64,000 nt of DNA, taken from NCBI RefSeq assembly GCF_002954355.1, contig NZ_MQVV01000010.1:372001-436000 (forward strand), read 5' to 3'. How positions within the stretch are numbered: position 1 is the stretch's first letter; every line of letters begins with the position of its first letter. Positions 1,441-63,872 of the stretch are shown here, one piece after another. Origin of the DNA: Nonlabens tegetincola (lineage in GTDB: Bacteria; Bacteroidota; Bacteroidia; Flavobacteriales; Flavobacteriaceae). The translations under genes and the position numbers were made by a program. Under the pieces are notes generated by a model. That model made no database searches and was not told where the DNA came from. It worked only from the letters and a program-made list of their open reading frames with translations.

Positions 1441-2217
1441 CTATTTCTTGAAATTCAACTCTAGGCTGTGAATCTTGCCTGAGGTCCAAATATAAAGGTT
1501 TCCCGTCTTTAGATGAAAGCTTTTGTTGTTTTCAGTAATCAAAATTTCCTTTGGGATTTTGGTTGTTTCGCTTTCGCGAAAGCGAAAATCTTTACCAAAA
1601 TTATAGGATGTAACATCATTGCCTTGAATTATTACCAATTGTTCTAGATGATAGGCTAGCATTGCGCCATTCAAACTCAAAGTTGATGTCTTACTACCAT
1701 AAGTATTGAATGAAATTAGAGAGTTGTCTACTTGAACATGGCAGAAGTTATAATCGGTATATAAATGTCGTATGTTGCCTTTAATAACTGGTGTTGAAGA
1801 GATGATTCTATTATTGATATAATCGTATAATTCTATTTGATTAGTATCGGCATTGAGCATCCATAAACGTCTATCGCCTGCAAGCTGGACTTTACTAATG
1901 AATCTTAGTGGATTAAGTGTACTTAAGGTTACTCGCTGTATTTCATTAAGTCTGTTGTCAAGAATTACAACGGTTTGAGTATCCTCATAAAAAACAACGA
2001 TTTTAAGTGGATTAAGTAAATCTACACTGGTAATAGGCCCTAATTGTATGTCAAAGTAGTTTGTAGATTGTGTGGTGGTTTTTTTGACTAGAGCTTGATC
2101 TTTTCCATAATACAATGCACCAAAGTCATCAATGCCATAAAACTCCTGCATATCCACAGGTGTTTTAATTTCCTGGCACATACCGTACAAACAAAAAAGA
2201 AGAAGTAAGTATTTCAC
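1441..2217 (-). CDS. Secreted hypothetical protein, possibly beta-propeller-like
   Basis: 258 aa of unknown function. The N-terminus MKYLLLLFCLYGMCQ is a short hydrophobic signal peptide, so the protein is probably periplasmic or surface-exposed. The rest is rich in beta-strand-like segments with repeated V-x-L-L-D-N/I-x-L-Y-D patterns, which suggests a propeller, but no family is recognised. It lies between a two-component system (start 41 bases below the regulator stop) and a deoxynucleoside kinase (3-base gap). Near the C-terminus it carries one copy of the window's repeated palindrome (1569-1584), read as RFRES. Confidence 0.7.
   Translation of the reverse strand: MKYLLLLFCLYGMCQEIKTPVDMQEFYGIDDFGALYYGKDQALVKKTTTQSTNYFDIQLGPITSVDLLNPLKIVVFYEDTQTVVILDNRLNEIQRVTLSTLNPLRFISKVQLAGDRRLWMLNADTNQIELYDYINNRIISSTPVIKGNIRHLYTDYNFCHVQVDNSLISFNTYGSKTSTLSLNGAMLAYHLEQLVIIQGNDVTSYNFGKDFRFRESETTKIPKEILITENNKSFHLKTGNLYIWTSGKIHSLELNFKK
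1569..1584. repeat. Palindromic repeat CGCTTTCGCGAAAGCG, copy 1
   Basis: Exact copy inside the 1441-2217 gene (minus strand), read RFRES. Confidence 0.95.
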
Positions 2218-2257
2218 AGTATAAAGGTACTTCTTTTAAACGCAGTACTCTTTTACC

Positions 2258-4538: not shown

Positions 4539-4557
4539 TATATCAAAAACCTAAACT

Positions 4558-6380: not shown

Positions 6381-6390
6381 CATCTTAAAA

Positions 6391-6440: not shown

Positions 6441-9155
6441 ATGAAAAAGAATATTCTTATAGCCATTTTGTGCTTATTTGTTTTCGCTTTCGCGAAAGCG
6501 CAATCTGTTAAAATCACAGGAGTGGTGGCAGATAGTTTAGGAAATACGTTAGGTATGGCAAACGTAATCGCCTATCAACAAGATAAAAATTTAGGTGCCT
6601 TTGGTATCACAAATGATCAAGGTAAATACCAACTTTTGAATCTTAAAAAAGACAGTACATACATTCTCAAGGTGTCTTTTTTAGGATTGAAAACTATTGA
6701 GGATACTGTCAAAAACATCCAGACAGATCTAGTTAAAAATTATATCATGTTAAATGGCGCCGATGAACTTGACGCAATTAACATTGTCTATGAGATGCCG
6801 GTTTCTATAAAAGGTGATACCATCGTTTACAATGCCGATAGTTTTACCAATGGAACTGAGGATAAACTAGAAGATACCCTTAACAAATTACCAGGTGTTG
6901 AAGTAAATGAGGACGGAGACATTCTTGTAGAAGGTAAACAGGTTGAGAAAGTCATGGTAGAAGGTAAAGATTTCTTTGAAGGTGATAGTCGCTTAGCTAC
7001 AAAAAACATCCCAGCAGATGCAATTGATAAAGTACAGGTTCTTAGAAATTATAATAATCGCAGCCAATTAAAGGGTCTAGGGAACGATCAAGATAGAGTC
7101 GTGATTAATTTGAAGTTGAAAGAAGGGAAAAAGAAATTTTGGTTTGGAGAAGCTACTGTAGGAGCTGGTTATGGTGGTGACAAAGCTAGGTATATCATCC
7201 AGCCTAAAGCCTTTTATTACAGTGAAGATTTCTCAATGAATATTTTAACTGACTTTAATGATTTAGGAACACCTGCTTTCACTGGTCGAGATTACTTTAG
7301 ATTCATAGGTTTTAGTCGTCGCGATACAAGACAGAACAATTCTAGTATAAACGTTCAAGCTCAAAACCCTTTAAACGTATTTCAGGGTAATCGAGCCCTT
7401 AATATAGAGAGCCAGTTTGGTGCACTTAACACATCATGGTCGGTTAATAATAAGTTGGATATAAGTTCATTTGCCATAGTTTCTAAAAACACAATCGATA
7501 CTCGCAGTACGAGCAGAAGAACCTTTGTGGATAATTCTAATACTGAGGAAACGGATAATAGAGGTGTAGATGAAACAGTTGCCGCTTTATTTAAATTGGG
7601 AGCAGAGTATAACCCTACTGATGCGTTTACTCTAAGTTATGATGGAAGATTCAATTATGCAGACCAGCAAGGTGTAAGTGATTTAAGTTCTATTGATCGT
7701 GAAGCAGATCGTAGTATAGATACTCGTGATGAACAACAGCCTATTACGTTTAACCAGTCTTTAAATATGTACTACACCGCAAACGAGAAAAACATTTTTG
7801 CGTTTGAAAGTCAGTTTTTGAATCAGTACGAGGATCCTTTTTACAATGCAGTTTTAGATATAGATCCTTTTGACCCAACCACAAATACGGAACCTTTTAA
7901 CGGTAGACTAGGTATAGGTGAGCAGGATATTTATAATATCAATCAAGAACAATTTGTTAACACAAATAAGTTGGATGCAAAGCTGGATTATTACTATGTA
8001 TTAAACAAAAAAAGTAATTTAAACTTTACTGTAGGAACAAGTTATGTGTCTCAAAACTTTGATTCAGATATATTTGAGATTCAAGCAGATGGAACTCGTA
8101 ACGAATTACAAGATTCAAATTTACGCAATGATGATGTGAACTTTGATTTCTTAGACGTTTATGGAGCTGTTCATTATAAAGCTATTTTAGGTAAGTTCAC
8201 CATAACACCTGGATTAACTGCGCATTCATTTCAAACAAAGGACAGACAGAATGGAGTTACTAATACTATCGAAACGGAACGTGTTGTACCGGACGTAGAA
8301 GTACGTTACGATTTTAGAAGTTCAGAAACTTTGACACTTAACTACGATCAAAATGTAACTTTTAATGATGTAAATAGTTATGCCAATGGTATTTTATTTA
8401 GAGGTTATAGTTCCCTACAAAGCGGTAACAATCAGATAGAAGGAGCTTTGAATGATCGAGTAAGATTAAGCTATCGTAACTTCAACATGTTTAATTACAC
8501 TACCATATTTGGTAATGTTACCTACACCCGATTAACTGATGCTATTCAAAATGAAGTGGCTTTAGATGGTATCAATCAAGTTTCTCGTCCTATAAATGCA
8601 TTATTGCCTAATGAATCTTTAAGTGCAACTGGTTCTTTTGGTCGAGAAATAAAGAAGATTCAAGCTACTGTGACAGCAAATGTAAGTTGGTCAGAGAATA
8701 ACAATATTATCAATAATATTACTCAAACAGCTACAAACTTCAATCAAAACTATAGTTTCAGAGCTCGATCAAATTTCCAAAAGGGAATTAATTTCAGTTT
8801 ACAATACGCCCTTAATCTTAACAATAGTGAGAATGGTAACTTTGAAAATGATGCAACAACAAACAGTATAAACTTAGATTTAGATTATCAACTAGGTAAG
8901 AGCTGGTTGTTCAAGGCAGGATATGATTACAACATTTTCACTGCAACTGGTGATGTAGAAAATAACTTTGAATTTTTTGATGCTAGTATCCGTTATCAAA
9001 AACCAGACTCCAGATGGAGGTACGAGTTAATCGCAACAAACTTATTAGATACCGATGCTAATATTCGTAATTCATTTGGTCAAATTGCAACAAGTACCAA
9101 CGCAACTTTCGTTTTACCTAGATACGTATACTTTAGAATGAGATTTGATATATAA
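6441..9155 (+). CDS. Outer-membrane TonB-receptor-like beta-barrel protein
   Basis: 904 aa. The signal peptide MKKNILIAILCLFVFAFAKAQ ends in a copy of the window's palindrome (6485-6500), which supplies the AFAKA residues. A CarboxypepD_reg-like beta-sandwich follows (about 23-110: VADSLGNTLGMANV, TNDQGKYQL), then a plug domain with KLPGVEVNEDGDILVEGKQV, and a long barrel of alternating aromatic strands ending in a terminal aromatic-rich strand (RYVYFRMRFDI). It belongs to the Bacteroidota receptor/barrel families that lack a clear TonB box. Its place after two GLPGLI genes is a recurrent association; the substrate is unknown. Confidence 0.85.
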   Translation: MKKNILIAILCLFVFAFAKAQSVKITGVVADSLGNTLGMANVIAYQQDKNLGAFGITNDQGKYQLLNLKKDSTYILKVSFLGLKTIEDTVKNIQTDLVKNYIMLNGADELDAINIVYEMPVSIKGDTIVYNADSFTNGTEDKLEDTLNKLPGVEVNEDGDILVEGKQVEKVMVEGKDFFEGDSRLATKNIPADAIDKVQVLRNYNNRSQLKGLGNDQDRVVINLKLKEGKKKFWFGEATVGAGYGGDKARYIIQPKAFYYSEDFSMNILTDFNDLGTPAFTGRDYFRFIGFSRRDTRQNNSSINVQAQNPLNVFQGNRALNIESQFGALNTSWSVNNKLDISSFAIVSKNTIDTRSTSRRTFVDNSNTEETDNRGVDETVAALFKLGAEYNPTDAFTLSYDGRFNYADQQGVSDLSSIDREADRSIDTRDEQQPITFNQSLNMYYTANEKNIFAFESQFLNQYEDPFYNAVLDIDPFDPTTNTEPFNGRLGIGEQDIYNINQEQFVNTNKLDAKLDYYYVLNKKSNLNFTVGTSYVSQNFDSDIFEIQADGTRNELQDSNLRNDDVNFDFLDVYGAVHYKAILGKFTITPGLTAHSFQTKDRQNGVTNTIETERVVPDVEVRYDFRSSETLTLNYDQNVTFNDVNSYANGILFRGYSSLQSGNNQIEGALNDRVRLSYRNFNMFNYTTIFGNVTYTRLTDAIQNEVALDGINQVSRPINALLPNESLSATGSFGREIKKIQATVTANVSWSENNNIINNITQTATNFNQNYSFRARSNFQKGINFSLQYALNLNNSENGNFENDATTNSINLDLDYQLGKSWLFKAGYDYNIFTATGDVENNFEFFDASIRYQKPDSRWRYELIATNLLDTDANIRNSFGQIATSTNATFVLPRYVYFRMRFDI
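6485..6500. repeat. Palindromic repeat, copy 2
   Basis: Exact copy, in the signal peptide of the outer-membrane receptor, read AFAKA. Confidence 0.95.
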
Positions 9156-10131: not shown

Positions 10132-12317
10132 TTGATAAGATGCATGAATTCTTTAAGCCGGTAAGCATTAGTCAACTAGAAAAAATGGTTTCGGACTGGG
10201 ATAAAAACTCTTTTATATATAATCAGGTGTCATGGTTTAGTAGTACGTATAAAAATGAGACCGATCCGTCTATTATAATACCAGCCGCCTCGGGATTAAT
10301 GTGTGATATTCGTGTAAATCTTAAAGAAGATAGACGCGGTACTCGTAGAACTAGCGCATTGGAATTAAGTTTAAGGTTAGAAGAATTAATATTTCAACAA
10401 GCCTCACAATGGAGTCCTAACACAATCAGAGAGCACATTGATAAAATTTATGCATTAAGCGAGGCACTAGCATCAGCAGGTTACATTGAACAATGGGAAT
10501 GGGACTTAGTAGAAAATGATTTGCACATTCATACTGATGCCACTGTTAAAGCAAAAATTCTACTTCAATTTATTCAAAAAGCTAGACAACAACTAGCATG
10601 GGGTAGTGGAATGGTTAAAAGTATTTACGGTGATACCGTAGAGCAATATGCGAGTTTTGAACCGTTAGCCCTTGGACTCTACGATGATAAGATAAGGAGC
10701 AGCTTACTCTTGCCCTTGGGAGATGCAATTGGAGATTTCTCAGGATTAGTGTCTAGACAAATAGGAATGGAAAACAATGTTCCAGTAGTTGATAATACAA
10801 GTACCATAAAAGGATTGAACCCAGGTTATGCCATGGGAACTTTGCATGTGGTAAGTGGTGATGCACATGGATTATCCGTAAACTCTTCAGATATATATGT
10901 TTTTGAAACACCGCCTAGTGATTTAAAACCGGTAGCAGGAATAGCCACCGTATCAGAAGGTAATCTAGTATCACATGTACAATTGCTTGCTCGTAATTTG
11001 GGTATTCCTAATGCCGTCATAAGCACTGAAAATCTAAGTGACTTAAAAAAACTAGATGGTAAATCGGTTTTCTACGCTGTAAGTCCTAATGGAATAGTTC
11101 ATTTGTTTGACAAAGATCAATTAAGTAATGAGGATCAGGATTTATTTACAGCCTCAAAATCCAAGGATAAAAAAGAAATTCGAATTGATGAAAATCGTTT
11201 GAAACTAGAAATTACTTCACCAGTTGATATGGCTACAGTAACTAGTAAGGATAGTGGGATATTGTGCGGACCCAAAGCGGCAAACCTTGGTCAACTCAAA
11301 CAATTGTTTCCAGAAAAAGTGGTTAATGGAATAGTTCTTCCTTTTGGTGTTTTTAAAGATCACATGCTACAATCCATGCCAGATTATAAGGGTACTTATT
11401 GGGATTTTTTGAATAACGCTTTCGCGAAAGCGAAACAACTAAAACAAAATGGTTCAACACCTACCGAGGTGGAACAGTACCAACTGGATCAACTAGAGAT
11501 CCTGCGGTCATCCATTAAAACAATGCCTTTAAAACCAAGTTTAATTGAGGAGCTAGAAAAGCAGTTTAAAAGTACTCTAGGAAGTAAATTAGGAAATGTT
11601 CCCGTGTTTTTACGCAGTGATACTAACATGGAAGATCTCGAGGAGTTTACAGGAGCTGGCTTAAATCTTACAGTATTTAATGTAGTGGAAAGAGAAAAGA
11701 TTCTTCAAGGAATACGCGATGTTTGGGCAAGTCCGTACACAGAGCGCTCGTTTAAATGGAGACAAGCCTATTTATCCAACCCAGAAAGTGTGTATCCGTC
11801 CATATTAATTATTCCTACTGTAGATGTGGATTATAGCGGTGTACTAATCACCAAAGACTTTTTAAACAATCATGCCGAAAAGGTTACGGTAGCAATGAGT
11901 CGTGGAGCAGGCGGCGCCGTAGATGGACAAAGTGCAGAAACCTATTTGATTCATCAAAACGGAACTACCGAATTGATTGCGCCAGCAAGAGAAAATAAGC
12001 GCCGTCGATTGCCTGTTACCGGAGGATCTTATATGGAACATGTTGATTTTGATAATTCCATATTGAATGAAATGGATTTAAAGAAAATCCTACAATTTGC
12101 ACAAGATGCACATGCTACCATGCCAGAATCTAAAAATGGCACTTATAAAGGAGCTTGGGATATAGAGCTTGGCTTCAAAGAAGGTAAACTGTTCTTATTT
12201 CAAATAAGACCATTTGTTGAAAATCAAAATGCGCTTTCTCATCCATATCTACAGAAAATGGATGAAATGATTAATACGGAAATCGAGTTGTTAACTTCTA
12301 AAGAGATTCATGCGTAA
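10095..12317 (+). CDS. GWD-like PEP/pyruvate-dikinase-type protein, catalytic part (frame-shifted ORF 2)
   Basis: Catalytic half of the split dikinase. If translated alone it would start at ATG 10140 (725 aa); a TTG at 10071 is poor. The order is unknown helical region, then a phosphohistidine swivel domain (SHVQLLARNLGIPNAV; His codon at 10974, residue 523 of the joined protein), then a PPDK_N-type ATP-grasp domain at the C-terminus (GPKAANLGQL, RSDTNMEDL...GAGLNLTV, VWASPYTERS, WDIELGF...FQIRPF). Swivel before ATP-grasp is the order of alpha-glucan water dikinase, not of PEP synthase. The joined protein has a signal peptide, odd for an ATP-dependent enzyme. A palindrome copy at 11417-11432 is read as AFAKA. 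The TAA overlaps the next ATG (TAATG). Confidence 0.8.
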   Translation: MKKEDLEKFELLIDKMHEFFKPVSISQLEKMVSDWDKNSFIYNQVSWFSSTYKNETDPSIIIPAASGLMCDIRVNLKEDRRGTRRTSALELSLRLEELIFQQASQWSPNTIREHIDKIYALSEALASAGYIEQWEWDLVENDLHIHTDATVKAKILLQFIQKARQQLAWGSGMVKSIYGDTVEQYASFEPLALGLYDDKIRSSLLLPLGDAIGDFSGLVSRQIGMENNVPVVDNTSTIKGLNPGYAMGTLHVVSGDAHGLSVNSSDIYVFETPPSDLKPVAGIATVSEGNLVSHVQLLARNLGIPNAVISTENLSDLKKLDGKSVFYAVSPNGIVHLFDKDQLSNEDQDLFTASKSKDKKEIRIDENRLKLEITSPVDMATVTSKDSGILCGPKAANLGQLKQLFPEKVVNGIVLPFGVFKDHMLQSMPDYKGTYWDFLNNAFAKAKQLKQNGSTPTEVEQYQLDQLEILRSSIKTMPLKPSLIEELEKQFKSTLGSKLGNVPVFLRSDTNMEDLEEFTGAGLNLTVFNVVEREKILQGIRDVWASPYTERSFKWRQAYLSNPESVYPSILIIPTVDVDYSGVLITKDFLNNHAEKVTVAMSRGAGGAVDGQSAETYLIHQNGTTELIAPARENKRRRLPVTGGSYMEHVDFDNSILNEMDLKKILQFAQDAHATMPESKNGTYKGAWDIELGFKEGKLFLFQIRPFVENQNALSHPYLQKMDEMINTEIELLTSKEIHA
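11417..11432. repeat. Palindromic repeat, copy 3
   Basis: Exact copy in the dikinase catalytic ORF, read AFAKA. Confidence 0.95.
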
Positions 12318-19521: not shown

Positions 19522-20324
19522 GAATAGCTCTGTTATTACTTTTAATTTTATCATTGATTGCATGCAATCAAAACAATACAACTATGACCGCTACCATTCA
19601 TATAGAATCCAAAAATTATAAGATAGACCTAGACAAACCCATTGATATAAGTATTCCTGTACAACATCAATCTGGTGTAGGTGCCTGGTATATCGATCAA
19701 CCTACTATTAAGCATGTTGAGGTTGATGGTTACGTAGGAAAAGTAGAATTGGGCGGCAGTACAAATTTTAATGATGTTTCGTTTAATCCTCACTCTCATG
19801 TAACTCATACTGAATGTGTAGGACATATCACAAAGCAAGTTTACAGCGTGAATCAAGCATTAAATAGAACCTTTTTTAAAGCACAGGTTATTAGTGTTCA
19901 ACCAGAAGAGTTTGAGGATGATTTGATAATTACCTTAGAAAAGTTTACCCATATTGCTGACGATGTAGAGGCAATTGTGATAAGAACTCTTCCTAATTCA
20001 GGTGATAAAAAGACCAGGAACTATTCTCATACTAATCCACCTTATTTACTGGAAGAAGTAGCAGTACGCTTTCGCGAAAGCGGAATAAAACACCTGCTTA
20101 TTGATTTGCCTAGCGTAGATAAAGAAAAGGACGAAGGAGCATTACTAGCCCACAAGGCTTTCTTTAATTATCAAGGCGACTACCGAATGGATGCTACGAT
20201 TACAGAATTTATTTATGTACCCGATGAGGTGAGTGATGGAAATTATTTATTGGATTTGCAAATAGCACCTATAGAGAATGACGCAGCTCCTTCTAGACCT
20301 ATTTTGTATAAGATAAAATCTTAA
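19518..20324 (+). CDS. Cyclase-family (kynurenine formamidase-like) lipoprotein
   Basis: 268 aa of the PF04199 cyclase/hydrolase type. FNPHSHVTHTECVGHI matches the metal-binding HxxTHxD/E core, although the last ligand is E-C here. The N-terminus MRIALLLLLILSLIACNQ is a lipoprotein signal with Cys16; a start at the internal ATG 19584 (MTATIHIES) would remove it and give a cytoplasmic enzyme, as most family members are. The 4-base overlap with the preceding stop supports the longer start. A palindrome copy (20067-20082) is read as RFRES inside the C-terminal half. Confidence 0.75.
   Translation: MRIALLLLLILSLIACNQNNTTMTATIHIESKNYKIDLDKPIDISIPVQHQSGVGAWYIDQPTIKHVEVDGYVGKVELGGSTNFNDVSFNPHSHVTHTECVGHITKQVYSVNQALNRTFFKAQVISVQPEEFEDDLIITLEKFTHIADDVEAIVIRTLPNSGDKKTRNYSHTNPPYLLEEVAVRFRESGIKHLLIDLPSVDKEKDEGALLAHKAFFNYQGDYRMDATITEFIYVPDEVSDGNYLLDLQIAPIENDAAPSRPILYKIKS
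20067..20082. repeat. Palindromic repeat, copy 4
   Basis: Exact copy in the cyclase-family gene, read RFRES. Confidence 0.95.
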
Positions 20325-23248: not shown

Positions 23249-23264
23249 CGCTTTCGCGAAAGCG
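23249..23264. repeat. Palindromic repeat, copy 5
   Basis: Exact copy, intergenic, upstream of the SPFH gene (minus strand). Confidence 0.95.
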
Positions 23265-28167: not shown

Positions 28168-28169
28168 TT

Positions 28170-30190: not shown

Positions 30191-30206
30191 CGCTTTCGCG
30201 AAAGCG
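30191..30206. repeat. Palindromic repeat, copy 6
   Basis: Exact copy, intergenic, between sdhA and sdhB, where it would form a hairpin in the operon mRNA. Confidence 0.95.
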
Positions 30207-32714: not shown

Positions 32715-32730
32715 CGCTTTCGCGAAAGCG
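32715..32730. repeat. Palindromic repeat, copy 7
   Basis: Exact copy, intergenic, 17 bases after the lipoprotein gene and upstream of the ctaB promoter. Confidence 0.95.
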
Positions 32731-37778: not shown

Positions 37779-37991
37779 ATGAAAAGGTTTTTAGTATTAC
37801 TCACTGTTTTTCTTTATTCCGCTTTCGCGAAAGCGCAATGTGCAATGTGCCGTGCCGTAATTGAAAGTTCTGGCAACAAAGCAGAGGCAGAAGGTTTAAA
37901 CGATGGAATTACCTACCTAATGGCATTTCCATACATTTTAATTGGCGGTATTATATATATGATCTATCGCAGCACTACCAAAAAAACTTGA
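37779..37991 (+). CDS. Small membrane protein with CxxC after the signal peptide
   Basis: 70 aa. The signal-peptide-like N-terminus MKRFLVLLTVFLYSAFAKAQ carries a palindrome copy (37820-37835) as AFAKA, immediately followed by CAMCRAVIES and one C-terminal membrane helix (LMAFPYILIGGIIYMIY). The CxxC suggests metal binding or redox, in keeping with the oxidase-assembly operon. It starts 9 bases after the DUF420 stop. No formal family name is known to me. Confidence 0.75.
   Translation: MKRFLVLLTVFLYSAFAKAQCAMCRAVIESSGNKAEAEGLNDGITYLMAFPYILIGGIIYMIYRSTTKKT
37820..37835. repeat. Palindromic repeat, copy 8
   Basis: Exact copy in the signal peptide of the 70-aa CxxC protein, read AFAKA. Confidence 0.95.
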
Positions 37992-42532: not shown

Positions 42533-43996
42533 ATGAAAAAAGTACTCTTAATTATTATGTGTTTCGCTTTCGCGAAAGCGATTCAAGCACAATCAACAAC
42601 ATCTACCGATAAGAAATGGACTTTACAAGAGTGTGTACAATACGCACTGGATAACAACATTTCAATCAAACAAAGTGAGTTAGATTTAAAAGCAGCAGAT
42701 GCCGATAAATTGAGCGCACTGGGTAATCTTTTACCGTCGTTAAATGCAGGTGCAGGAGTTTCAGAAAATACCGGATTAAGTTTTAACCCAGTTACCAATA
42801 ACGCTCAAACAACAACATTCCTTTCTGCAACAGGAAGAGTTAATGTAGGTTATAACGTATTTGACGGGTTTAGAAACTTTAGACAATTACAAAGAGCAAA
42901 AATTTCAAAAATTGCTAGTGAATATCGTCTAGATAAAATGAAAGATGACATAGCGCTTGCAGTTGCAAATAACTACCTTCAAATACTTACAAATAAAGCA
43001 AATTTGAAAACCTTCAAAGCTCAAAACGAGATTACAAAGGATCAAATTAAGCAAACTCAAGAATTGGTAGATGCTGGTCAACTACCACGAGGAGATTTAT
43101 TAGAAATCAAAGCTCAAGATGCTACAGAGCAACAACAAATTATCAACGCACAAAATGCTGTAATTATAAGTAGAGTAAGTCTTGCTCAATTGCTGTTGAT
43201 TGAGGACTATGAGAACTTTGATATTGCCGATGAGGATTTTGAGGTAATTGATGAAGATGTTTCTGAAAAACCAGTTACAGAAATCATCAGTTCTGCTGAA
43301 GAAAATCGTTCAGAGGTTAGAATCGCAGAACAGAATTTAGAATTAGCCAAGAAAGACTTACAAATAGCCAAAGGAGCTTACTTGCCTACAGTAAGTGCGT
43401 TTTTTAGCTATGATACCAGATATACTAACAATGCCTCGTTTGACCAACGTATAGCCGACCCTAATAATCCTACCGAAACACAAATCATAGGAACTGTTGA
43501 AGGTACAGGACAAAATGTGGTAACTGAAGTGCCAGTATTAGAAACCGTACTAGTAGGAGCAGAGCCTTTTATAGATCAATTGTATCAAAACGATGGTATA
43601 GCTTATGGTTTCCAACTTAATGTTCCAATTTTCAATGGTTTTAGTGTTCGTAGTAATGTAGAGCGCAGTCAAATTAATATTGAACGTTCTAAATACCAAT
43701 TAGAACAAGCAAAATTGGATCTAGAAAGTAGTGTGTACCAAGCTTACGTTGATGTACAAGGATCACGTCAGGCTTTTGACGCTGCAAAAACCGCATTAGA
43801 ATCTCAAGAATTAGCTTATGAGTATGCAAAAGAAAGATATGATGTGGGACTTACAAATGCATTTGATTTTGGTCAAAGTAAGTTGAGATACGACAATGCT
43901 ATCATTACATTAAATCAAGCTAAATACGACTATATCTTTAGACTTAAGGTGCTTGAATTGTTTTTTGGGATAGAACCTCTAGAATTAAAATTATAA
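42533..43996 (+). CDS. TolC family outer-membrane channel protein
   Basis: 487 aa with two OEP repeats of long helices (ALDNNISIKQSELDLKAADADKLSALGNLLPSL; YQLEQAKLDLESSVYQAYVDVQGSRQAFD). The signal peptide MKKVLLIIMCFAFAKAIQAQ contains a palindrome copy (42565-42580), read FAFAKA just before the cleavage site. It forms the exit duct of the tripartite efflux complex. Six bases separate its stop from the second adaptor. Confidence 0.92.
   Translation: MKKVLLIIMCFAFAKAIQAQSTTSTDKKWTLQECVQYALDNNISIKQSELDLKAADADKLSALGNLLPSLNAGAGVSENTGLSFNPVTNNAQTTTFLSATGRVNVGYNVFDGFRNFRQLQRAKISKIASEYRLDKMKDDIALAVANNYLQILTNKANLKTFKAQNEITKDQIKQTQELVDAGQLPRGDLLEIKAQDATEQQQIINAQNAVIISRVSLAQLLLIEDYENFDIADEDFEVIDEDVSEKPVTEIISSAEENRSEVRIAEQNLELAKKDLQIAKGAYLPTVSAFFSYDTRYTNNASFDQRIADPNNPTETQIIGTVEGTGQNVVTEVPVLETVLVGAEPFIDQLYQNDGIAYGFQLNVPIFNGFSVRSNVERSQINIERSKYQLEQAKLDLESSVYQAYVDVQGSRQAFDAAKTALESQELAYEYAKERYDVGLTNAFDFGQSKLRYDNAIITLNQAKYDYIFRLKVLELFFGIEPLELKL
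42565..42580. repeat. Palindromic repeat, copy 9
   Basis: Exact copy in the TolC-family signal peptide, read AFAKA. Confidence 0.95.
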
Positions 43997-45297: not shown

Positions 45298-45987
45298 ATG
45301 CCATTGATTCTTTGTATTGAAACAAGTAGTACTAATTGTTCAGTTGCAATAGCTAACGACAGCGCTACTGCTAGTAATATATATGGTGCTGCTATGGTGC
45401 TGGATATTCTTGAAGACAATAGTGATTCATACAATCATGGTGAAAAGCTTCATGTTTTCATAGATGAAATCACCACTAGGAATGGATATGTAATGGGTGA
45501 TTATGATGCTATTGCTGTAAGCTCTGGACCAGGATCATATACTGGGTTAAGAATTGGTGTGAGTGCAGCTAAAGGTTTGAGTTTTGCCCTAGACGTACCT
45601 TTAATTGCTATTGATACACTACAAGCATTATCTACAATTAATAAAATTGATTCCGAATTTACAGCCGCTTTTCTTGATGCACGTCGCATGGAAGTATATG
45701 CTTCAATATTTGACCGATCAGGTAAACGAGTACTTGAATCACAACCAGTAGTTGTTGAAGATGATTCTTTTATTCGCTTTCGCGAAAGCGGAACAATATC
45801 CTACATAGGAACTGGTATAGAAAAAACGAGAGAACTTCTAAATATCGAACAGCAATATATCACGGAAGTAAACCCAACAGCAGCAGCACTGTGTGCTCTC
45901 GCTATTGATGGGTATAAAAAAAGCGACACCGTTGATGTCGCTTATTTTGAGCCAAATTATCTCAAAGAATTTAAGATAGGTGGTTAA
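45298..45987 (+). CDS. tsaB: tRNA threonylcarbamoyladenosine biosynthesis protein TsaB
   Basis: 229 aa ASKHA-fold protein: ILCIETSSTNCSVAI, HGEKLHVFIDEI, SSGPGSYTGLRIGVSAAKGL, DARRMEVYAS. TsaB partners TsaD and TsaE to make the universal t6A modification at position 37 of ANN-decoding tRNAs. A palindrome copy (45775-45790) is read RFRES in the C-terminal part, an otherwise variable region. It converges on the dodecin gene with a shared TTAA. Confidence 0.93.
   Translation: MPLILCIETSSTNCSVAIANDSATASNIYGAAMVLDILEDNSDSYNHGEKLHVFIDEITTRNGYVMGDYDAIAVSSGPGSYTGLRIGVSAAKGLSFALDVPLIAIDTLQALSTINKIDSEFTAAFLDARRMEVYASIFDRSGKRVLESQPVVVEDDSFIRFRESGTISYIGTGIEKTRELLNIEQQYITEVNPTAAALCALAIDGYKKSDTVDVAYFEPNYLKEFKIGG
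45775..45790. repeat. Palindromic repeat, copy 10
   Basis: Exact copy in tsaB, read RFRES. Confidence 0.95.
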
Positions 45988-48429: not shown

Positions 48430-48969
48430 ATGAGAAAATTACTTAATGAAGAGCTAGATAGGTTAGATGTTGATGCCTATAAAAACAGCGACAAAACACC
48501 CATTACGATTGTTTTAGATAACATACGTAGTCTTAATAATATAGGAAGCGTTTTTAGAACAGCCGATTGTTATCGTGTCGAGAAAATAATATTATGTGGT
48601 ATAACAGCCCAACCACCGCATAGGGATATTAGAAAGACAGCTCTAGGCGCAACAGAATCTATTGAATGGCAATATGTAGAGGATACCTTAAAAGCACTAG
48701 AAAATCTAAAAAATAATCAATACCACTTGTGTGCTATAGAACAAGCCGAAAACAGTACCAGCTTGTATCATTTTAAACCTGAGAAAGGACAAAAACTAGC
48801 CGTTGTATTTGGGAACGAGGTTAAAGGAGTACAGCAGCAAGTTGTAGACTATTGCGATACGATTATTGAGTTACAGCAATTCGGGACAAAACACAGTCTA
48901 AACATTTCAGTTTGTGCAGGAATTGTGATTTATGACCTTTTCAATAAAGTAAGTTCACTTAGGAGTTGA
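48430..48969 (+). CDS. SpoU/TrmH-family RNA 2'-O-methyltransferase
   Basis: 179 aa SPOUT enzyme with the three motifs: NIRSLNNIGSVFRTAD (motif 1), AVVFGNEVKGV (motif 2) and SLNISVCAGIVIYDL (motif 3). It uses SAM to methylate a ribose in tRNA or rRNA; the target base cannot be told from sequence. The 3' end overlaps the convergent folK-dNK gene by 11 bases. Confidence 0.9.
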   Translation: MRKLLNEELDRLDVDAYKNSDKTPITIVLDNIRSLNNIGSVFRTADCYRVEKIILCGITAQPPHRDIRKTALGATESIEWQYVEDTLKALENLKNNQYHLCAIEQAENSTSLYHFKPEKGQKLAVVFGNEVKGVQQQVVDYCDTIIELQQFGTKHSLNISVCAGIVIYDLFNKVSSLRS

Positions 48970-50095
48970 TTTGATCCAGTATTGTGATGTAATCCTCATG
49001 CTTATTGACAAAATCAAGTTCAGTTACATCAATAACTTTGATTTTTAAACTGTCTTGCGTTTTGATAAAATCTGCATATCCTTTCTGGATTTCCATTAGA
49101 TATTCAGTTTGAATATCTTGTTCATATTCACGACCTCTTTTCTTAATGTTATCCAGTAAACGCTCCTCAGTTTGGTACAAATAGATGTACAATTCTGGTT
49201 TGACGAGCTCTTTATACATCATGTAAAACAGTCGTTTGTATAAAGTATATTCCTCTTCTGATAATGTTATTTTACTAAAGATAAGTGACTTTACCACGTA
49301 GTAATCAGCTACCGTGAATTCTTTAAAAAGATCCTGTTGACCTATTTCATCATGTAGTTGCTGGTAGCGATCAGCTAGGAATGACATTTCTAGTGAAAAA
49401 GCATAACGTTCTTGTTCTTTATAAAACAAGGGCAAAAAAGGATTATCGGCAAATCGTTCAAGAACTTCCTTTCCCGTAAAATCTTCACCTATTTTATGTG
49501 TTAAACTAGTTTTTCCTGACCCAATATTTCCTTCAATGGCAATGAAATTATGGCGTTGAATGGGATATCGTTTTCGCGAAAGCGTAATTTCAACATCATC
49601 CACAGGTTCTAATGGCTCCATTTTAGATGCAATATTACCTATGTGAATGGTTTCGTTTTCTATTTCCCATTCTTTGCAGAAATCCAATAAGGGTAATACA
49701 ACAAAATTCCGTTCTTGCCAATGTTTATGGGGAATATCAAGCCTTTCTGACTGGAATTGGATGTTATCATAAAAAATGATATCCAGATCGATAGGGCGAC
49801 TCTCATAATGATCTGTGACCTTAACCGATCGACCCATTTCACTTTCAATATTTTTAAGCTTATCAAGTACATCTTGCGGTGTGTAAATAGTGTGAATTAG
49901 AAGAACCGTATTATAAAAATCAGGTCCATCAAATCCAAAACTTTGGCTTGCATACACTTTTCCAGCCTTAATGATTAAACCAATTTTGGTTTCAATAAGT
50001 CGTGTAGCGCGTTCTATTTGGTTTTTTTTATCACCTAGGTTTGTGCCTAACGCTATGATTACCTTATGATTGCCTATTTTTGAGATGCCTATAAT
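48959..50095 (-). CDS. folK: Fusion: HPPK (FolK) with a deoxynucleoside kinase domain; no ATG start
   Basis: Two-domain protein. The N-terminal HPPK transfers pyrophosphate to 6-hydroxymethyl-dihydropterin in folate synthesis (ALGTNLGD, SFGFDGPDFYN, RPIDLDIIFYD). The C-terminal dNK has the P-loop GNIGSGKTS and GREYEQDI. The only ordinary start is GTG 49957, but the frame continues upstream through KVIIALGTNLGD, the essential first strand and Gly motif of FolK, so the protein begins near ATT 50095 or ATC 50086. No ATG, GTG or TTG is in frame there. A one-mismatch palindrome copy (49569-49584) lies in the linker, read TLSRKR. Confidence 0.88.
   Translation of the reverse strand: MIGISKIGNHKVIIALGTNLGDKKNQIERATRLIETKIGLIIKAGKVYASQSFGFDGPDFYNTVLLIHTIYTPQDVLDKLKNIESEMGRSVKVTDHYESRPIDLDIIFYDNIQFQSERLDIPHKHWQERNFVVLPLLDFCKEWEIENETIHIGNIASKMEPLEPVDDVEITLSRKRYPIQRHNFIAIEGNIGSGKTSLTHKIGEDFTGKEVLERFADNPFLPLFYKEQERYAFSLEMSFLADRYQQLHDEIGQQDLFKEFTVADYYVVKSLIFSKITLSEEEYTLYKRLFYMMYKELVKPELYIYLYQTEERLLDNIKKRGREYEQDIQTEYLMEIQKGYADFIKTQDSLKIKVIDVTELDFVNKHEDYITILDQINS
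49569..49584. repeat. Palindromic repeat, copy 11, one substitution
   Basis: CGTTTTCGCGAAAGCG: C3 to T on the plus strand. In folK-dNK (minus strand) it reads TLSRKR, and the change is a synonymous Lys codon change (AAG to AAA). Confidence 0.9.
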
Positions 50096-50848: not shown

Positions 50849-53580
50849 TGAAAAAAATATTGAAAATAGTAGGAGTATTTGTGCTCGCGGTTGTGGTGTT
50901 GTTAATAGCAGCTCCATTTCTATTGAAGGATCAAATTGCACAAGTGATCAAGGATAAACTCAACAACAGCCTTAATGCTCAGGTGGACTTTGCCGAGGTT
51001 GATTTAAGCTTATTCAGTGCATTTCCAGATGCCTCACTTAACTTAAAAAAACTTCAGGTAATCAATAAAGAGCCTTTTGTAGGTGATACATTGTTTTACA
51101 GTGACGCTATTAAATTGTCGTTACCCGTTATGGATTTATTCAATGAAGTCGGTGAGCCTATTGAAGTATATGAATTAACAATTGACGATGCTATAGCTAG
51201 ATTGAAGGTTAATGCAACAGGTGCCGCAAACTGGGATATTGCTGTTAGGGATTCCGCTTTCGCGAAAGCGGAAACGACACAAACACCTCAAGAAAACACA
51301 GGATTTGTATTTGACCTTAACCATTATGAAATTAATAATTCAAGTTTTTCTTATATCGATGAGGAGAGTAAGAATGTGTTGCTCCTTAATGACTTAAATC
51401 ATGAAGGTACGGGTGATTTTAGTTTAAATGAATCTACCTTACAAACCATCACAAATGCCAAGGTTACTTACGAGTTGGACGGTATAAAGTATGTTAATGA
51501 TCAAGATGTCTCACTAGTAGCTGATGTTCTCATGAACCTAGATGATCAACGTTATACTTTTAAAGAAAATGAAGCAAAGGTGAATGACTTATCACTGGAA
51601 TTAGACGGTTTTGTTGATTTAGAAGAAAATAGCACGCTCGTTGATCTTACATTTAAAACTCCAAGTTCTGATTTTAAAAACTTTTTTGCTCTTATTCCAC
51701 AAGAGTACCGTAGCAATTTAGAAGGCATAACAACAACAGGAGACTTTATTGTCAACGGGACTATAAACGGTGAGGTTACCGACGAATTAATTCCTAAAAT
51801 GGATATAAAAGTATCGTCGCAAAATGCATCATTCAAATATCCAGATTTACCACAAACAGTTCGTAATATTAATTTTAACGCAGCCTTACTTAATACTACT
51901 GGTAAGGTTGAGGATACTTATTTAAGTGTGCCTAGCGCAACTTTTAATCTTGCTGGTGAAACAGTAAGTGCCAAAGCACTGGTTACAAGACTTACGGAAA
52001 ATATGAAAGTGGACCTAGAGGCTCGTGGTATTATTGACCTTCTGAAATTACAACAAGCCATACCTTTTCCTGATAACACCTCATTGAATGGAATTTTAGA
52101 TTTAGACATTGCAACGGTGTTTGATATGGAAAGTGTAGAGAATGAACGCTATGCGAATATCCAAACCAAAGGACTGGCAAAACTTAGAGATTTCACCTAT
52201 CAAGGTGATGCGTTTAACCAATCCTTTGATGTAAGCACTGCTGTAATTAATATGAATAATAGTCGTGTAAAATTAGAAAGTTTTAATGCTAGAACAGGTA
52301 ATACAGATCTTAACGCATCGGGAACAATTAATAATTTAATTGGGTTTTTATTTGAAGATCAAAAGCTTAAAGGAAACTTCAAAGTATCGTCTGATCAATT
52401 TGATACTTCTGATTTCATGAGTACTACAACTGGTTCCAAAGAAGAAACTATTACAACAGAAAATAAAAGTGTCGCTACTACCAATAATGAGGCAATCAAA
52501 ATACCAGATTTTCTAGATGCTCAGTTGGATTTTAATGCTAATCGCGTGATTTATGATAATATCACGTTGAATGATGTGTCTGGAATCGCTATGGTAAGAG
52601 ATGAAACTTTGTTTTTAAACGATCTAAAAACAAAAGTTTTTAATGGTACCATCGGTCTAGACGGAACTGTTTCTACAAAAGGTACTACTCCTAAATTTAA
52701 GATGGCCTTAAATATGAATGAACTCGATATCGCACAATCGTTTCAGGGATTTGAAATGTTTCAAAAATTAGTACCGTTAATTAATGCATTTAAAGGGAAA
52801 CTAAATACCGATCTTGAAATACAAGGAGATTTGTCTAATGATCTTACTCCTGTTTTGACTACAATAGCTGGTGATGCATTTGCACAACTTTTAACCGATG
52901 ACGTTGATACTAGTCAAAATAAATTACTTAATCTACTGGATAATAAATTAGGTTTTATTGATGTAAACAATTTAAATCTAAGAGACATAACTACTAAACT
53001 TAAACTAAATAACGGAGCGGTAGAAATAGCACCTTTTGATTTTAATATTAAGGATATAAAAGTAGTTGCTAGTGGTAAGCACAGCTTGTCCAATTCAATG
53101 GATTATACCTTGAACTTAGAGGTTCCTGCAAAATATTTTGGTAAAGAAGGAGCTAGTTTACTATCAAAGTTAGAAAGTAAAGAAATAGATCAAATCACCG
53201 TACCTGTTCCAGTAAAATTAGGTGGTAGTATAAGCTCGCCTTCAGTAGATTTAAATCTTGATCTAGCGGTCAAAAATTTAACAAACCAAATTATTGAGAT
53301 TCAAAAGCAAAAGTTGAAGGATAAAGGCGAGGAAGCTGCCAATAACGCAATCAACGATATCTTACAAGGCAATAATCCACTGGATAACATTAAGGATGTT
53401 ATCAAAGGAGATAAAGGTCAAGTTAAAGACAGCACACAGACTACAAGTCCCGTTTCTTCAACCGCCGATTCTTTAAAGCAAAATACTAAAGACAAGGTTA
53501 AAGAGACTGCAGGTAATTTAATTAAAGATCTATTTGGTCGTAACAAGAAAAAGCCAGTTGATACTACCAAGGCTAAATAA
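50845..53580 (+). CDS. AsmA family protein
   Basis: 911 aa. N-terminal membrane helix (about 8-26), then an AsmA-like beta-rich region (DFAEVDLSLFSAFPDASLNLKKLQV; VDLTFKTPSSDFKNFFALIP) and the C-terminal AsmA_2 domain (GFIDVNNLNLRDITTKLKLNNGAVEIAPFDFNI). The charged K/D/T-rich tail ends in KKKPVDTTKAK. AsmA-like proteins act in envelope lipid transport. A palindrome copy (51255-51270) is read AFAKAE at the end of the first domain. Coupled to the transporter gene by 4 bases; ends at a long hairpin terminator. Confidence 0.88.
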   Translation: MMKKILKIVGVFVLAVVVLLIAAPFLLKDQIAQVIKDKLNNSLNAQVDFAEVDLSLFSAFPDASLNLKKLQVINKEPFVGDTLFYSDAIKLSLPVMDLFNEVGEPIEVYELTIDDAIARLKVNATGAANWDIAVRDSAFAKAETTQTPQENTGFVFDLNHYEINNSSFSYIDEESKNVLLLNDLNHEGTGDFSLNESTLQTITNAKVTYELDGIKYVNDQDVSLVADVLMNLDDQRYTFKENEAKVNDLSLELDGFVDLEENSTLVDLTFKTPSSDFKNFFALIPQEYRSNLEGITTTGDFIVNGTINGEVTDELIPKMDIKVSSQNASFKYPDLPQTVRNINFNAALLNTTGKVEDTYLSVPSATFNLAGETVSAKALVTRLTENMKVDLEARGIIDLLKLQQAIPFPDNTSLNGILDLDIATVFDMESVENERYANIQTKGLAKLRDFTYQGDAFNQSFDVSTAVINMNNSRVKLESFNARTGNTDLNASGTINNLIGFLFEDQKLKGNFKVSSDQFDTSDFMSTTTGSKEETITTENKSVATTNNEAIKIPDFLDAQLDFNANRVIYDNITLNDVSGIAMVRDETLFLNDLKTKVFNGTIGLDGTVSTKGTTPKFKMALNMNELDIAQSFQGFEMFQKLVPLINAFKGKLNTDLEIQGDLSNDLTPVLTTIAGDAFAQLLTDDVDTSQNKLLNLLDNKLGFIDVNNLNLRDITTKLKLNNGAVEIAPFDFNIKDIKVVASGKHSLSNSMDYTLNLEVPAKYFGKEGASLLSKLESKEIDQITVPVPVKLGGSISSPSVDLNLDLAVKNLTNQIIEIQKQKLKDKGEEAANNAINDILQGNNPLDNIKDVIKGDKGQVKDSTQTTSPVSSTADSLKQNTKDKVKETAGNLIKDLFGRNKKKPVDTTKAK
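51255..51270. repeat. Palindromic repeat, copy 12
   Basis: Exact copy in the AsmA-family gene, read AFAKA. Confidence 0.95.
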
Positions 53581-55377: not shown

Positions 55378-55393
55378 CGCTTTCGCGAAAGCG
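55378..55393. repeat. Palindromic repeat, copy 13
   Basis: Exact copy, intergenic, between the divergent SCO and rseP genes. Confidence 0.95.
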
Positions 55394-58666: not shown

Positions 58667-59163
58667 TGAAAAAGATAATTTATATATGCACACTCCTTGT
58701 GGTTCTTATAAGCTGTGATGATTATTTAGTTTCTTCGCAAACTGTTTCATTGGAAAACGCAAAATGGAATATTAATCAGGCACCAGTTTTTAAAGTGTCT
58801 CCACCAGACACAACAAATACTTATGACCTCTTTATAAACCTGCGAAATAACCACGAGTACGCTTTTAGTAACCTCTTTTTAATCTCAGAAATTAAATTTC
58901 CTCAAGGTAGGACTTTTGTTGATACCCTAGAGTTTGATATGACCGATAATTACGGTCGTTATTTGGGTAGAGAACGAGGTGATTTATATGAAAACAAATT
59001 ATGGTTAAGAGAAGGAATACGCTTTCGCGAAAGCGGAACCTACCATCTAACCTTAAGACACGTAATGCGTAAGACAGGTGAAATAACACCAGTACAAAAT
59101 TTAAACGGTATTGTAGACCTAGGTTACAGTATTGAAAAACCTAAAAATTATGGCAAAGACTAA
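58666..59163 (+). CDS. gldH: Gliding motility lipoprotein GldH
   Basis: 165 aa lipoprotein; signal VKKIIYICTLLVVLISCDD with Cys17 after LISC. The start is GTG 58666, overlapping the previous stop by one base. The GldH-typical mature part includes WNINQAPVFKV, YDLFINLRNNHEYAFSNLFL and DTLEFDMTDNYGRYLGRERGD. GldH is an envelope lipoprotein needed for gliding and type IX secretion in Flavobacterium johnsoniae. A palindrome copy (59020-59035) is read RFRES. It overlaps the PBP1A start by 14 bases. Confidence 0.9.
   Translation: MKKIIYICTLLVVLISCDDYLVSSQTVSLENAKWNINQAPVFKVSPPDTTNTYDLFINLRNNHEYAFSNLFLISEIKFPQGRTFVDTLEFDMTDNYGRYLGRERGDLYENKLWLREGIRFRESGTYHLTLRHVMRKTGEITPVQNLNGIVDLGYSIEKPKNYGKD
59020..59035. 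repeat. Palindromic repeat, copy 14
   Basis: Exact copy in gldH, read RFRES. Confidence 0.95.
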
Positions 59164-61483: not shown

Positions 61484-61486
61484 AGT

Positions 61487-62197
61487 ATGATTCATAAAAT
61501 TGACATGCACCATATTTTGTTTCTGGATATTGAAACTGTTCCTCAATATGCCAGTTTTGAAGAATTAGACGAAGCAGATCAAGAGCTATATTCTGATAAA
61601 ACAAAATACCAGCGTAAAGAAGATTTTACGCCACAAGAATTTTATGAGCGTGCTGGCATATGGGCAGAGTTTGGTAAAATTGTATGTATATCAGTAGGGT
61701 ATTTTGCTTATACAAGCGACACACAATTTAGAACCAAAAGTTTTGTGGGTGATGAGCGCGACATTTTAATAGAGTTTTCTCAATTATTAAAAGAACATTT
61801 TTCGTCTAGACGACACCTATTATGTGCCCATAACGGTAAGGAATTTGACTTTCCTTATATTGCTAGGAGAATGATCATCCTAGGGATAGATTTACCAGAA
61901 AAACTAAACTTATTTGGTAAGAAGCCATGGGAAGTACCTCATCTTGACACCATGGAGTTGTGGAAATTTGGGGATTATAAACATTTTACTAGCCTTAAGT
62001 TGTTAACTAGGGTTTTGGGTATTCCATCACCTAAAGATGATATCAGTGGTGACCAGGTACGAGATGTATATTATAAGGAAAATAACATCAAACGTATTTC
62101 AGATTATTGTGAAAAGGATGTAGTCGCAATAGCTCAGATATTTCTAAAATTACGTAACCAACCTATCTTATCGAATGACCAAATTATCTCAAAATAA
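61487..62197 (+). CDS. 3'-5' exonuclease (PolB-like/DEDD superfamily)
   Basis: 236 aa (or 230 from the internal ATG at MHHILFLDIETVP). DEDD motifs: ILFLDIETVP (D-x-E), LLCAHNGKEFDFPYIARRM (N-G-x-x-F-D) and ISDYCEKDVVAI (YxxxD type). It is a stand-alone DnaQ/RNase H-like nuclease domain of the type annotated predicted 3'-5' exonuclease related to the exonuclease domain of PolB. It probably trims DNA or RNA ends. Its 3' end overlaps the ABC gene by 23 bases. Confidence 0.88.
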   Translation: MIHKIDMHHILFLDIETVPQYASFEELDEADQELYSDKTKYQRKEDFTPQEFYERAGIWAEFGKIVCISVGYFAYTSDTQFRTKSFVGDERDILIEFSQLLKEHFSSRRHLLCAHNGKEFDFPYIARRMIILGIDLPEKLNLFGKKPWEVPHLDTMELWKFGDYKHFTSLKLLTRVLGIPSPKDDISGDQVRDVYYKENNIKRISDYCEKDVVAIAQIFLKLRNQPILSNDQIISK

Positions 62198-63872
62198 TAC
62201 ACTGGTCACTTGTGAAAATTTAAATGTAAGCTTCAGCACAGGTAAAAACTCTACACAGGTTCTTCATGATGTTTCTTTTGAAATATTATCTAATGAATTT
62301 GTCGCAGTTGTTGGAGAATCGGGTAGTGGTAAGTCGGTAATGAGTAAAGCTTTAATGGGCTTGTTGCCTGTTGAGAACTCTATAATTAACGCTAGTCAGT
62401 TGGTTATTAATAATGAGGAAGTTTTGCATTTCTCTTCTGGTGATTGGTCACGCTTTCGCGGAAGCGTAATAAGCATGATTTTTCAAGAACCTATGAGCGC
62501 ACTTAATCCTACTATTACATGTGGGAAACAAGTAGCTGAAATTTTAAAGCAACACACTGATCTTACTAAAGCCCAAATAAAGGATAAAGTAATTTCCTTA
62601 TTCCAAAAAGTCCACTTGCTACAACCAGAGTCTTTGTATCATAAATATCCTCATGAAATAAGTGGTGGACAAATGCAACGCGTTATGATTGCAATGGCAG
62701 TTGCTTGCAATCCCATTTTATTAATAGCCGATGAACCTACAACAGCTCTTGATGTTACTGTTCAAAAGGAAATTATCAAATTACTAAAGGATATACAGCA
62801 AGAGTTTAACATGAGTGTTTTATTTATTTCACATGATCTATCTCTTGTAAGATCTATTGCAGATAAGGTAATGGTGATGTATCAAGGTCACATTGTTGAG
62901 AAAGGTACAGTTCAATCGATCTTTAATGAGCCAAAGGAGCGATACACAAAGGCATTATTAGCCGCGAGACCTGATCTTAATGAACGTGTTGAGGTTTTAC
63001 CTACAATATCTGATTTTTTAGATAATAATTATTCAAAGAAACTTGTTGATGCTGTACAAAGAGAGCACTCACTTAAAACCATGTATACACAAGAACCTTT
63101 AATTCAAATCAAGGATTTGAAAAAAGTATATGAGGTAAAAAACGGCTGGTTTAATAAATCTAATGCTTTCACTGCTGTCAATGGAGTGAGCTTTAATATT
63201 TTTCCTGGTGAAAGTTTGGGATTGGTAGGAGAGAGTGGTTGTGGTAAAAGCACCCTAGGCAATATCATCCTAGGATTAAAAGAAGCTACCTCGGGTAGTG
63301 TTTTGTATAAAGGAACGCAGGTTGTAGGACAATCTCAAAAATCTTTGAGAAAGATGCGTCGTCAAATGCAAATTATTTTTCAAGATCCTTTTGCTAGTTT
63401 AAATCCTAGATTGACTGTAGGTTCTGCCATTTTAGAACCTATGAGTTGGTACAAGATAGGTAGTTCTAATAAGGAGAGAGAATTAATGGTTAAAGAACTG
63501 CTGGTTAAAGTAGGACTTAAAGAAGAGCATTATTATCGATATCCACACGAATTTAGCGGTGGACAACGTCAACGTATAGGTGTGGCTAGGACGATAGCCT
63601 TACGACCAGAATTTATAGTGTGTGATGAGAGTGTGAGCGCCTTAGATATTTCAGTACAGGCACAGGTTTTAAATCTATTGAACACACTTAAGCAAGAATT
63701 TGGTTTTAGTTACCTATTTATTTCTCATGATCTGGCAGTAGTGAAGCACTTTTGTGACCGTATTGTTGTTATGAATAAGGGAGAAATTGAAGAAATTCAA
63801 GAATCAGAACAGCTGTATAAAAATCCTCAAAAAATGTACACTAAAAAGTTGATTCAAGCTATTCCAAATTAA
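62175..63872 (+). CDS. Fused double ATP-binding protein of an oligopeptide-type ABC transporter (DppD-DppF-like)
   Basis: 565 aa with two complete NBDs. Domain 1: GESGSGKS, ISGGQMQRVMIAMAV, LLIADEPTTALD, ISHDLSL. Domain 2: GESGCGKST, FSGGQRQRIGVARTI, FIVCDESVSALD, ISHDLAVV. The fused DppD/DppF type energises peptide or nickel uptake; no permease or binding protein gene is nearby. One imperfect palindrome copy (62451-62466) is read RFRGS in domain 1. Ends at a weak hairpin. Confidence 0.9.
   Translation: MTKLSQNNTLVTCENLNVSFSTGKNSTQVLHDVSFEILSNEFVAVVGESGSGKSVMSKALMGLLPVENSIINASQLVINNEEVLHFSSGDWSRFRGSVISMIFQEPMSALNPTITCGKQVAEILKQHTDLTKAQIKDKVISLFQKVHLLQPESLYHKYPHEISGGQMQRVMIAMAVACNPILLIADEPTTALDVTVQKEIIKLLKDIQQEFNMSVLFISHDLSLVRSIADKVMVMYQGHIVEKGTVQSIFNEPKERYTKALLAARPDLNERVEVLPTISDFLDNNYSKKLVDAVQREHSLKTMYTQEPLIQIKDLKKVYEVKNGWFNKSNAFTAVNGVSFNIFPGESLGLVGESGCGKSTLGNIILGLKEATSGSVLYKGTQVVGQSQKSLRKMRRQMQIIFQDPFASLNPRLTVGSAILEPMSWYKIGSSNKERELMVKELLVKVGLKEEHYYRYPHEFSGGQRQRIGVARTIALRPEFIVCDESVSALDISVQAQVLNLLNTLKQEFGFSYLFISHDLAVVKHFCDRIVVMNKGEIEEIQESEQLYKNPQKMYTKKLIQAIPN
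62451..62466. repeat. Palindromic repeat, copy 15, one substitution
   Basis: CGCTTTCGCGGAAGCG: A11 to G. In the double ABC ATPase gene it is read RFRGS, so the change is Glu to Gly. Confidence 0.9.

Follow-up and report, generated by a model that had tools for sequence, protein, structure and literature searches.

A perfect 16-bp palindrome, CGCTTTCGCGAAAGCG, recurs along the chromosome of Nonlabens tegetincola, and we tentatively propose that its copies are evenly spaced docking sites of a putative symmetric protein that would organize resident DNA, a reading that we favor while judging it somewhat more apt to be wrong than right. The palindrome was first noticed in a first-pass annotation of one stretch of 64,000 nucleotides, here called the window (positions 372001 to 436000 of contig C10 in genome G000, an assembly of 3.03 Mb in 21 contigs). 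Recounting returned the 13 exact and 2 one-mismatch copies, spanning positions 1569 to 62466, that the annotation had listed, and a search allowing up to three mismatches added none in the window. The genome as a whole carries 464 exact copies and 600 with at most one mismatch, and the motif reversed without complementation, used as a control, occurs in it neither exactly nor at one mismatch. The palindrome is confirmed as real and is more extensive than the window suggested. Because the genome-wide count lies far above expectation, the window is typical of the genome and not the outlier that the annotation had allowed for.

RESULTS

The palindrome is symmetric and all-or-none

Even one 16-mer match had been called unexpected by chance, and this was borne out. 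Dinucleotide shuffles of the window (n = 100) gave a mean of 0.06 and a maximum of 1 match at up to three mismatches, and Markov models of order 1 to 4 trained on the window put the expected number of exact copies at 7e-6 or less. At orders 5 and 6 the figures are 0.004 and 1.9, higher values that we attribute to such models then containing the motif itself.

Site anatomy was examined in 436 kb, comprising the window and the adjoining 372 kb of contig C10. Besides 75 exact copies, it holds 21, 5, 1, and 3 copies with one, two, three, and four mismatches, respectively, and a simulated megabase of order 4 yielded 10 matches at four mismatches and none at fewer; sites are all-or-none. Over 381 sites from seven species, the half-site positions, counted from the outside to the center, carry 93, 9, 2, 1, 0, 26, 5, and 3 mismatches, the first count including a contribution from a variant form in one species, G022, described below. 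The putative recognition pattern, GCTT(N)CG / CG(N)AAGC, tolerates changes at positions 1/16 and 6/11. Outside the sites, half-sites and inner words (CGCTTTCG, GCTTTCGC, TTTCGC, and TCGCGA) occur at expectation, with no excess. The perfect dyad and the symmetric tolerance of mismatches agree with the nonpolar signal described in the annotation, and such symmetry would fit the site of a dimeric protein, which was among the candidate roles that it had put forward.

The flanks are symmetric as well. In three species, the roughly 17 bp that precede the site on either strand are poor in C, with T at −2, −3, −9, and −12; this stretch favors T or G, with a purine at −4, and the 3' flanks are A/C-rich. 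Flanks of different copies share this composition bias only. In the two species tested, facing flank bases farther out than −1 show no covariation; since the flanks do not pair beyond that position, the site is not part of a longer hairpin, a possibility that was thereby ruled out.

Sites keep an exclusion zone around one another

The 101 sites with at most two mismatches in the 436 kb are strongly underdispersed. The coefficient of variation (CV) of their gaps is 0.44; in 5,000 draws made to match coding and intergenic positions, the mean CV is 1.00 and the lowest 0.72. Five gaps are shorter than 1.7 kb, where 33 are expected, and 8 site pairs lie closer than 2 kb (about 47 expected), with pairs at larger distances near expectation. 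As short pairs are depleted and longer ones are at expectation, the sites keep an exclusion zone and do not form a lattice. The annotation had called the copies fairly evenly spread; the gaps in the window do range from 1.7 to 8.7 kb, as it reported, and its wording understated how even the spacing is. In six further species the CV ranges from 0.36 to 0.68, with P ≤ 0.001 in four.

Regional distribution was followed in G019, whose 2.92 Mb form one contig. Twenty stretches of this chromosome hold 4 to 9 sites each, except for one, half of it N, with 2. No regional depletion or concentration, including at the terminus, was seen in the 20 stretches, in which origin and terminus were not mapped exactly, and site density is flat round the chromosome.

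Sites are restricted to Nonlabens

Exact copies were counted in 59 genomes of the order, and all 23 Nonlabens genomes carry 180 to 737. One of 13 genomes from other genera of the same family (G033) has 4 and the rest have none, and the 23 genomes sampled from other families of the order lack exact copies altogether. An even sample of 395 genomes across the phylum gave 11 with a match, namely the window's genome and 10 with one or two copies, at least 6 of which belong to the same family as Nonlabens.

Freeing the two tolerant positions of the motif gives a core, GCTTNCGCGNAAGC, present in 337 to 879 copies in all 23 Nonlabens genomes (509 to 879 in the 20 with a completeness of 90% or more), at a density of about 0.14 to 0.26 per kb; the control for the core gave 0 in every one except G020, with 1. 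G022 has 255 exact copies but 666 by the core, and the two ends of 48 sites from this genome show a relaxed outermost base, with C in 59 cases, A in 23, and T in 14. Its site form is a dialect of the motif.

A count of palindromes of 10 to 16 bp in 1.57 Mb from other genera, made up of 77 sdhA loci, turned up nothing comparable; the commonest is a 10-mer seen 12 times in 342 kb of Aquimarina. Likewise, no palindromic 12-mer was seen three times in 17 of 20 further stretches from other genera (338 kb), the count having dropped 3 of the 20 that are 1.0 to 2.5 kb long. In a 20-kb stretch of another genus (L249, G027), dispersed 12-mers around ATTAGATTGAAG were observed.

Single sites persist as flanking DNA diverges

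Orthologous places were compared at sdhA. The SdhA-like protein encoded beside the site at 30191 shares 91 to 93% identity with three Nonlabens records and no more than 86% with the other 77 loci, and we take this to place the genome in Nonlabens. Positions are conserved among relatives: of 382 two-way comparisons of 20-kb sdhA loci from 20 species, 318 have an orthologous site. These comparisons, like those below, pair related species in either direction and are nonindependent. Length difference is zero in 214 of the 318, the rest showing shifts or alignment jumps. In 47 of the 64 comparisons without a site there is no length difference either, so sites are gained and lost mostly by substitution and not by insertion. 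Two claims of the annotation are upheld here, that the palindrome lies on no mobile element and that it behaves like the HIP1 palindrome of cyanobacteria.

Conservation was then measured in 261 colinear comparisons binned by flank identity, with neighboring 16-mers as controls. All 16 bp were identical in 37% of 52 comparisons at 70 to 75% flank identity (controls, 0.8%), in 58% of 57 at 75 to 80% (controls, 0.4%), and in 88% of 57 at 80 to 85% (controls, 5%). Directly behind sdhA a site is present in 19 of 20 species, 18 to 60 bp past the matched protein end; the surrounding DNA has diverged, but 15 of the 16 bp never vary, and one of the 19, G015, has unrelated near flanks. Selection appears to hold individual sites while the DNA around them diverges. 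The sdhA locus of G015 (L184) also contains an inverted repeat with TTCGACTCCGCTCAG, REP-like by eye, where other species have a site; TTCGACTCCGCTCAG was not found in checked stretches of seven other species.

Sites occur on viral contigs and in probably transferred islands

Among viral sequences, an exact copy was found in 41 stretches on 30 contigs, 19 of which have at least two sites within the parts examined; these contigs were selected for an exact copy, are partly covered, and include several apparent near-duplicates, and the densities are not estimates. A phage-integrase match was obtained for 6 of 22 contigs chosen for low GC. The site-richest contig has 7 sites in 27.9 of its 37.4 kb and encodes a transposition protein as well as Mu-like portal and head components. 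The sites alone point to Nonlabens as the probable host. The Nonlabens phages P12024S and P12024L, which are not an exhaustive set and have no integrase match, contain no site (35,000 of 35,652 bases scanned in P12024L); because the chance expectation is also zero, they show an absence of selection for the site and not its avoidance. Little was found in a DNA-similarity search for phage relatives.

In other genera, exact sites were found in two islands of similar gene content, L233 (G033) and L236 (G186), where translations read by eye suggest metal-efflux and multicopper-oxidase-like genes. Three one-mismatch copies were found in L232 and two in L236. The sites in the two islands are probably transferred DNA that is no longer maintained.

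Gene context of the sites

Gene context was taken from simple open reading frame (ORF) calls and not from a gene finder; the sites of the window are listed in Table 1. In the 436 kb, 76 of the 101 sites lie inside ORFs, in frames represented 37, 23, and 16 times, and 25 lie between ORFs, where they are 3.4-fold enriched, this DNA making up 7.3% of the sequence. One of these 25 is between convergent ORFs. Several sites near ORF starts read AFAKA, in signal-peptide-like sequence (by eye).

Table 1. Palindromic sites of the window and the ORFs around them
Feature	Position	Strand	Context
Exact site	1569..1584	.	inside ORF 1441-2217 (-)
Exact site	6485..6500	.	near 5' end of ORF 6441-9155 (+), reads AFAKA
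Exact site	11417..11432	.	inside ORF 10071-12317 (+)
Exact site	20067..20082	.	inside ORF 19518-20324 (+)
Exact site	23249..23264	.	between ORFs
Exact site	30191..30206	.	directly behind sdhA-like ORF 28098-30173; site here in 19/20 Nonlabens loci
Exact site	32715..32730	.	between ORFs
Exact site	37820..37835	.	between ORFs
Exact site	42565..42580	.	near 5' end of ORF 42533-43996 (+), reads AFAKA
Exact site	45775..45790	.	inside ORF 45298-45987 (+)
One-mismatch site (C3T)	49569..49584	.	inside ORF 48959-49957 (-)
Exact site	51255..51270	.	inside ORF 50845-53580 (+)
Exact site	55378..55393	.	between divergent ORFs
Exact site	59020..59035	.	inside ORF 58666-59163 (+)
One-mismatch site (A11G)	62451..62466	.	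inside ORF 62175-63872 (+)

Two close site pairs, 270 and 655 bp apart, lie in a his-operon-like region (by eye) of G019 (L214:11495-14753), and core sites 270 bp apart also occur in G004 (C4:88660/88930). A reader gene recognizable by autoregulation at close site pairs was considered and rejected, as the pairs sit in unrelated genes, including the his operon (by eye). Elsewhere in the window, positions 24626-26122 encode a relative of the lyso-ornithine lipid synthetase OlsH (394.7 bits; family cut-off, 620). Two species encode a further SdhA-like protein that shares 61% identity with the query, at G005:C1:1248630-1250534 and G010:C1:1096804-1098708. CTAG, rare in most bacteria, is overrepresented in the window and the 372 kb beside it (observed/expected, 1.36), and CGCG, CCGG, GGCC, and GTAC are depleted there.

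DISCUSSION

In the reading that we favor, each palindrome would dock a genus-specific, symmetric, probably homodimeric DNA-binding protein that, to judge from the flank bias of about 17 bp, may contact, bend, or wrap about 50 bp of double-stranded DNA. Selection would maintain roughly one site per 4 to 7 kb in cell-resident DNA, close neighbors being redundant, and the outcome would be a chromosome-wide set of evenly spaced anchor points through which the chromosome could be compacted, constrained, segregated, or repaired. The symmetry and all-or-none character of the sites argue for a dimeric reader, the exclusion zone for redundancy between neighboring sites, the conservation of single sites for selection on each, and the sites in integrase-bearing or Mu-like contigs for a function in cell-resident DNA; it is on these grounds that we favor docking sites that organize resident DNA. 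Stated as a whole, the sites may form a chromosome-wide positional code of 500 to 900 evenly spaced pegs of about 50 bp, selected site by site across the genus, adopted by some chromosome-resident phages, and served by a new symmetric reader with no methylation mark, a description that we hold to be very nearly as apt to be right as wrong.

Several results weigh against a chromosome-organizing role. The spacing reflects an exclusion zone rather than a lattice, and a tag of self-DNA would give the same pattern. In G002 the CV reaches P = 0.03 and short gaps are not depleted (4 versus 5.2 expected, P = 0.34); in G005 the CV is marginal (P = 0.05), though short gaps are depleted (P = 0.008). Site density varies about 2-fold among Nonlabens species, and restriction to one genus is unusual for chromosome organization. 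At 60 to 70% flank identity, the site was kept in 0 of 5 comparisons. Finally, no reader gene was found, and we infer the architectural role from sequence. A Noc-like ParB was rejected as reader because no extra ParB is common to all carriers: ParB_N gives one match in 20 of 23 Nonlabens genomes, as in the outgroups searched, and 2 to 3 in G015, G018, and G019. The 436-kb sample has 1 parS-like match and a 20-kb stretch round parB has none, which says little.

The main rival is a tag for the uptake of self-DNA, which we consider unlikely. An envelope receptor would prefer site-bearing DNA, and biased transformation would spread and keep the sites, as with the uptake sequences USS and DUS. Genus specificity in 23 of 23 Nonlabens genomes, sites in coding DNA in all frames, gain by substitution, and exclusion on the kilobase scale would all follow, and the ComEC family is present in 23 of 23 genomes. 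Riemerella columbina, which PMC7965970 assigns to the Nonlabens family, is reported there to prefer its own DNA in uptake. The palindromic motif does not suit such a tag, as uptake sequences (DUES) are not palindromes in the available text of PMC1939737. The pilus/type II secretion ATPase PF00437 scored above its cut-off in just 3 of 23 genomes, with weak sub-cut-off matches in 19 others, and by this one marker family the known pilus uptake route is not evident in 20 of 23 Nonlabens genomes. Sites in phage-like contigs are not obviously expected of an uptake tag either.

A recombination signal is improbable. As a two-way Chi-like site, the palindrome would stop nuclease-helicase degradation and load RecA; its density resembles that of Chi in Escherichia coli, its 5' flank is G/T-rich, as RecA prefers, and some phage-like contigs carry it. 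Chi, however, is asymmetric and read on one strand, whereas here half-sites are not enriched and mismatch tolerance is symmetric. Moreover, 16 bp is far longer than known Chi sites, and the two Nonlabens phages lack the palindrome.

Highly improbable is a HIP-like site that a DNA methyltransferase produces or marks at a CGCG or TCGCGA core. Gain by substitution would be in keeping with it, as would an iterated GC-rich palindrome whose outermost base is the most variable, a feature of HIP1 in the available text of PMC4390886. None of three methyltransferase families is universal, PF00145 being without a match in 9, PF01555 in 11, and PF02086 in 19 of the 23 Nonlabens genomes. G007, G008, and G010 (99% complete) match none of the three, other methyltransferase classes not having been searched, yet they carry 690, 795, and 584 core sites. 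The methylation mark suggested by the first-pass annotation was rejected on this basis, and TCGCGA is at expectation outside the sites.

Harder still to credit is a role in transcription, as the operator of a global regulator or as a terminator, for which the excess of sites outside ORFs speaks. Most sites nonetheless lie within ORFs, a single intergenic one is between convergent ORFs, the 3' flanks are A/C-rich and not T-rich, and the spacing is more even than gene layout yields. A tiny self-inserting mobile element or its relic, which would explain the many identical copies, has practically no chance of being correct and was rejected, given that places without a site mostly show no gap and that flanks of different copies share composition bias only.

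As far as its available text goes, PMC8034619 contains TTTCGCGAAA but concerns words absent from human DNA and gives no prior description of the palindrome. No description of the 16-mer or of a Nonlabens palindrome was found in the full texts searched, outside which most subscription papers lie. We know of no palindromic uptake tags; if the sites served uptake, they would be the first such tags known to us and would point to a receptor unlike pilins. If they are architectural, the binding map of an organizing protein would be readable from sequence at a scale of a few kilobases, with natural variants in 23 species. On either reading, the contrast of site-bearing phage-like contigs with the two site-free isolated phages is directly testable.

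Among known systems, parS and Noc-binding sites are 16-bp palindromes with TTTC and GAAA arms separated by 4 bp. The likeness in the arms that the first-pass annotation had pointed out is weak: the Nonlabens arms are 2 bp apart, the sites number in the hundreds and are not confined to one part of the chromosome, and 20 of 23 genomes have a single ParB_N match. The sites matS (for MatP) and SBS (for SlmA) are palindromic sites of dimeric chromosome proteins that occur in tens of copies, either restricted to the terminus or kept out of it, whereas the density of the Nonlabens site is flat. Chi likewise occurs genome-wide at about one per few kilobases, but it is short, asymmetric, and strand-biased, whereas the Nonlabens site is palindromic and its half-sites are not enriched.

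The uptake sequences USS of Haemophilus and DUS of Neisseria resemble the Nonlabens site in being genome-wide, lineage-specific, and partly inside ORFs, in the available text of PMC1939737. The same text cites one study that reported even spacing of uptake sequences and a view that such spacing indicates replication, repair, or compaction; its authors found uptake sequences not even enough for compaction. USS and DUS have a nonpalindromic core (PMC1939737), in contrast to the perfect palindrome of Nonlabens, which also occurs in some phage-like contigs; 20 of the 23 Nonlabens genomes have no pilus ATPase above cut-off. HIP1 (GCGATCGC) of cyanobacteria is described, in the available text of PMC4390886, as an iterated palindrome that is spread by substitutions and whose outermost base varies most. 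The Nonlabens site is likewise an overrepresented, genome-wide palindrome gained by substitution. It differs in length (16 bp plus flanks versus 8 bp), in density (about 0.14 to 0.26 versus 1 to 2 per kb), in its strongly even spacing, and in that no tested methyltransferase family is universal in Nonlabens. The analogy with HIP1 holds for the behavior of the palindrome and not for its methyltransferase.

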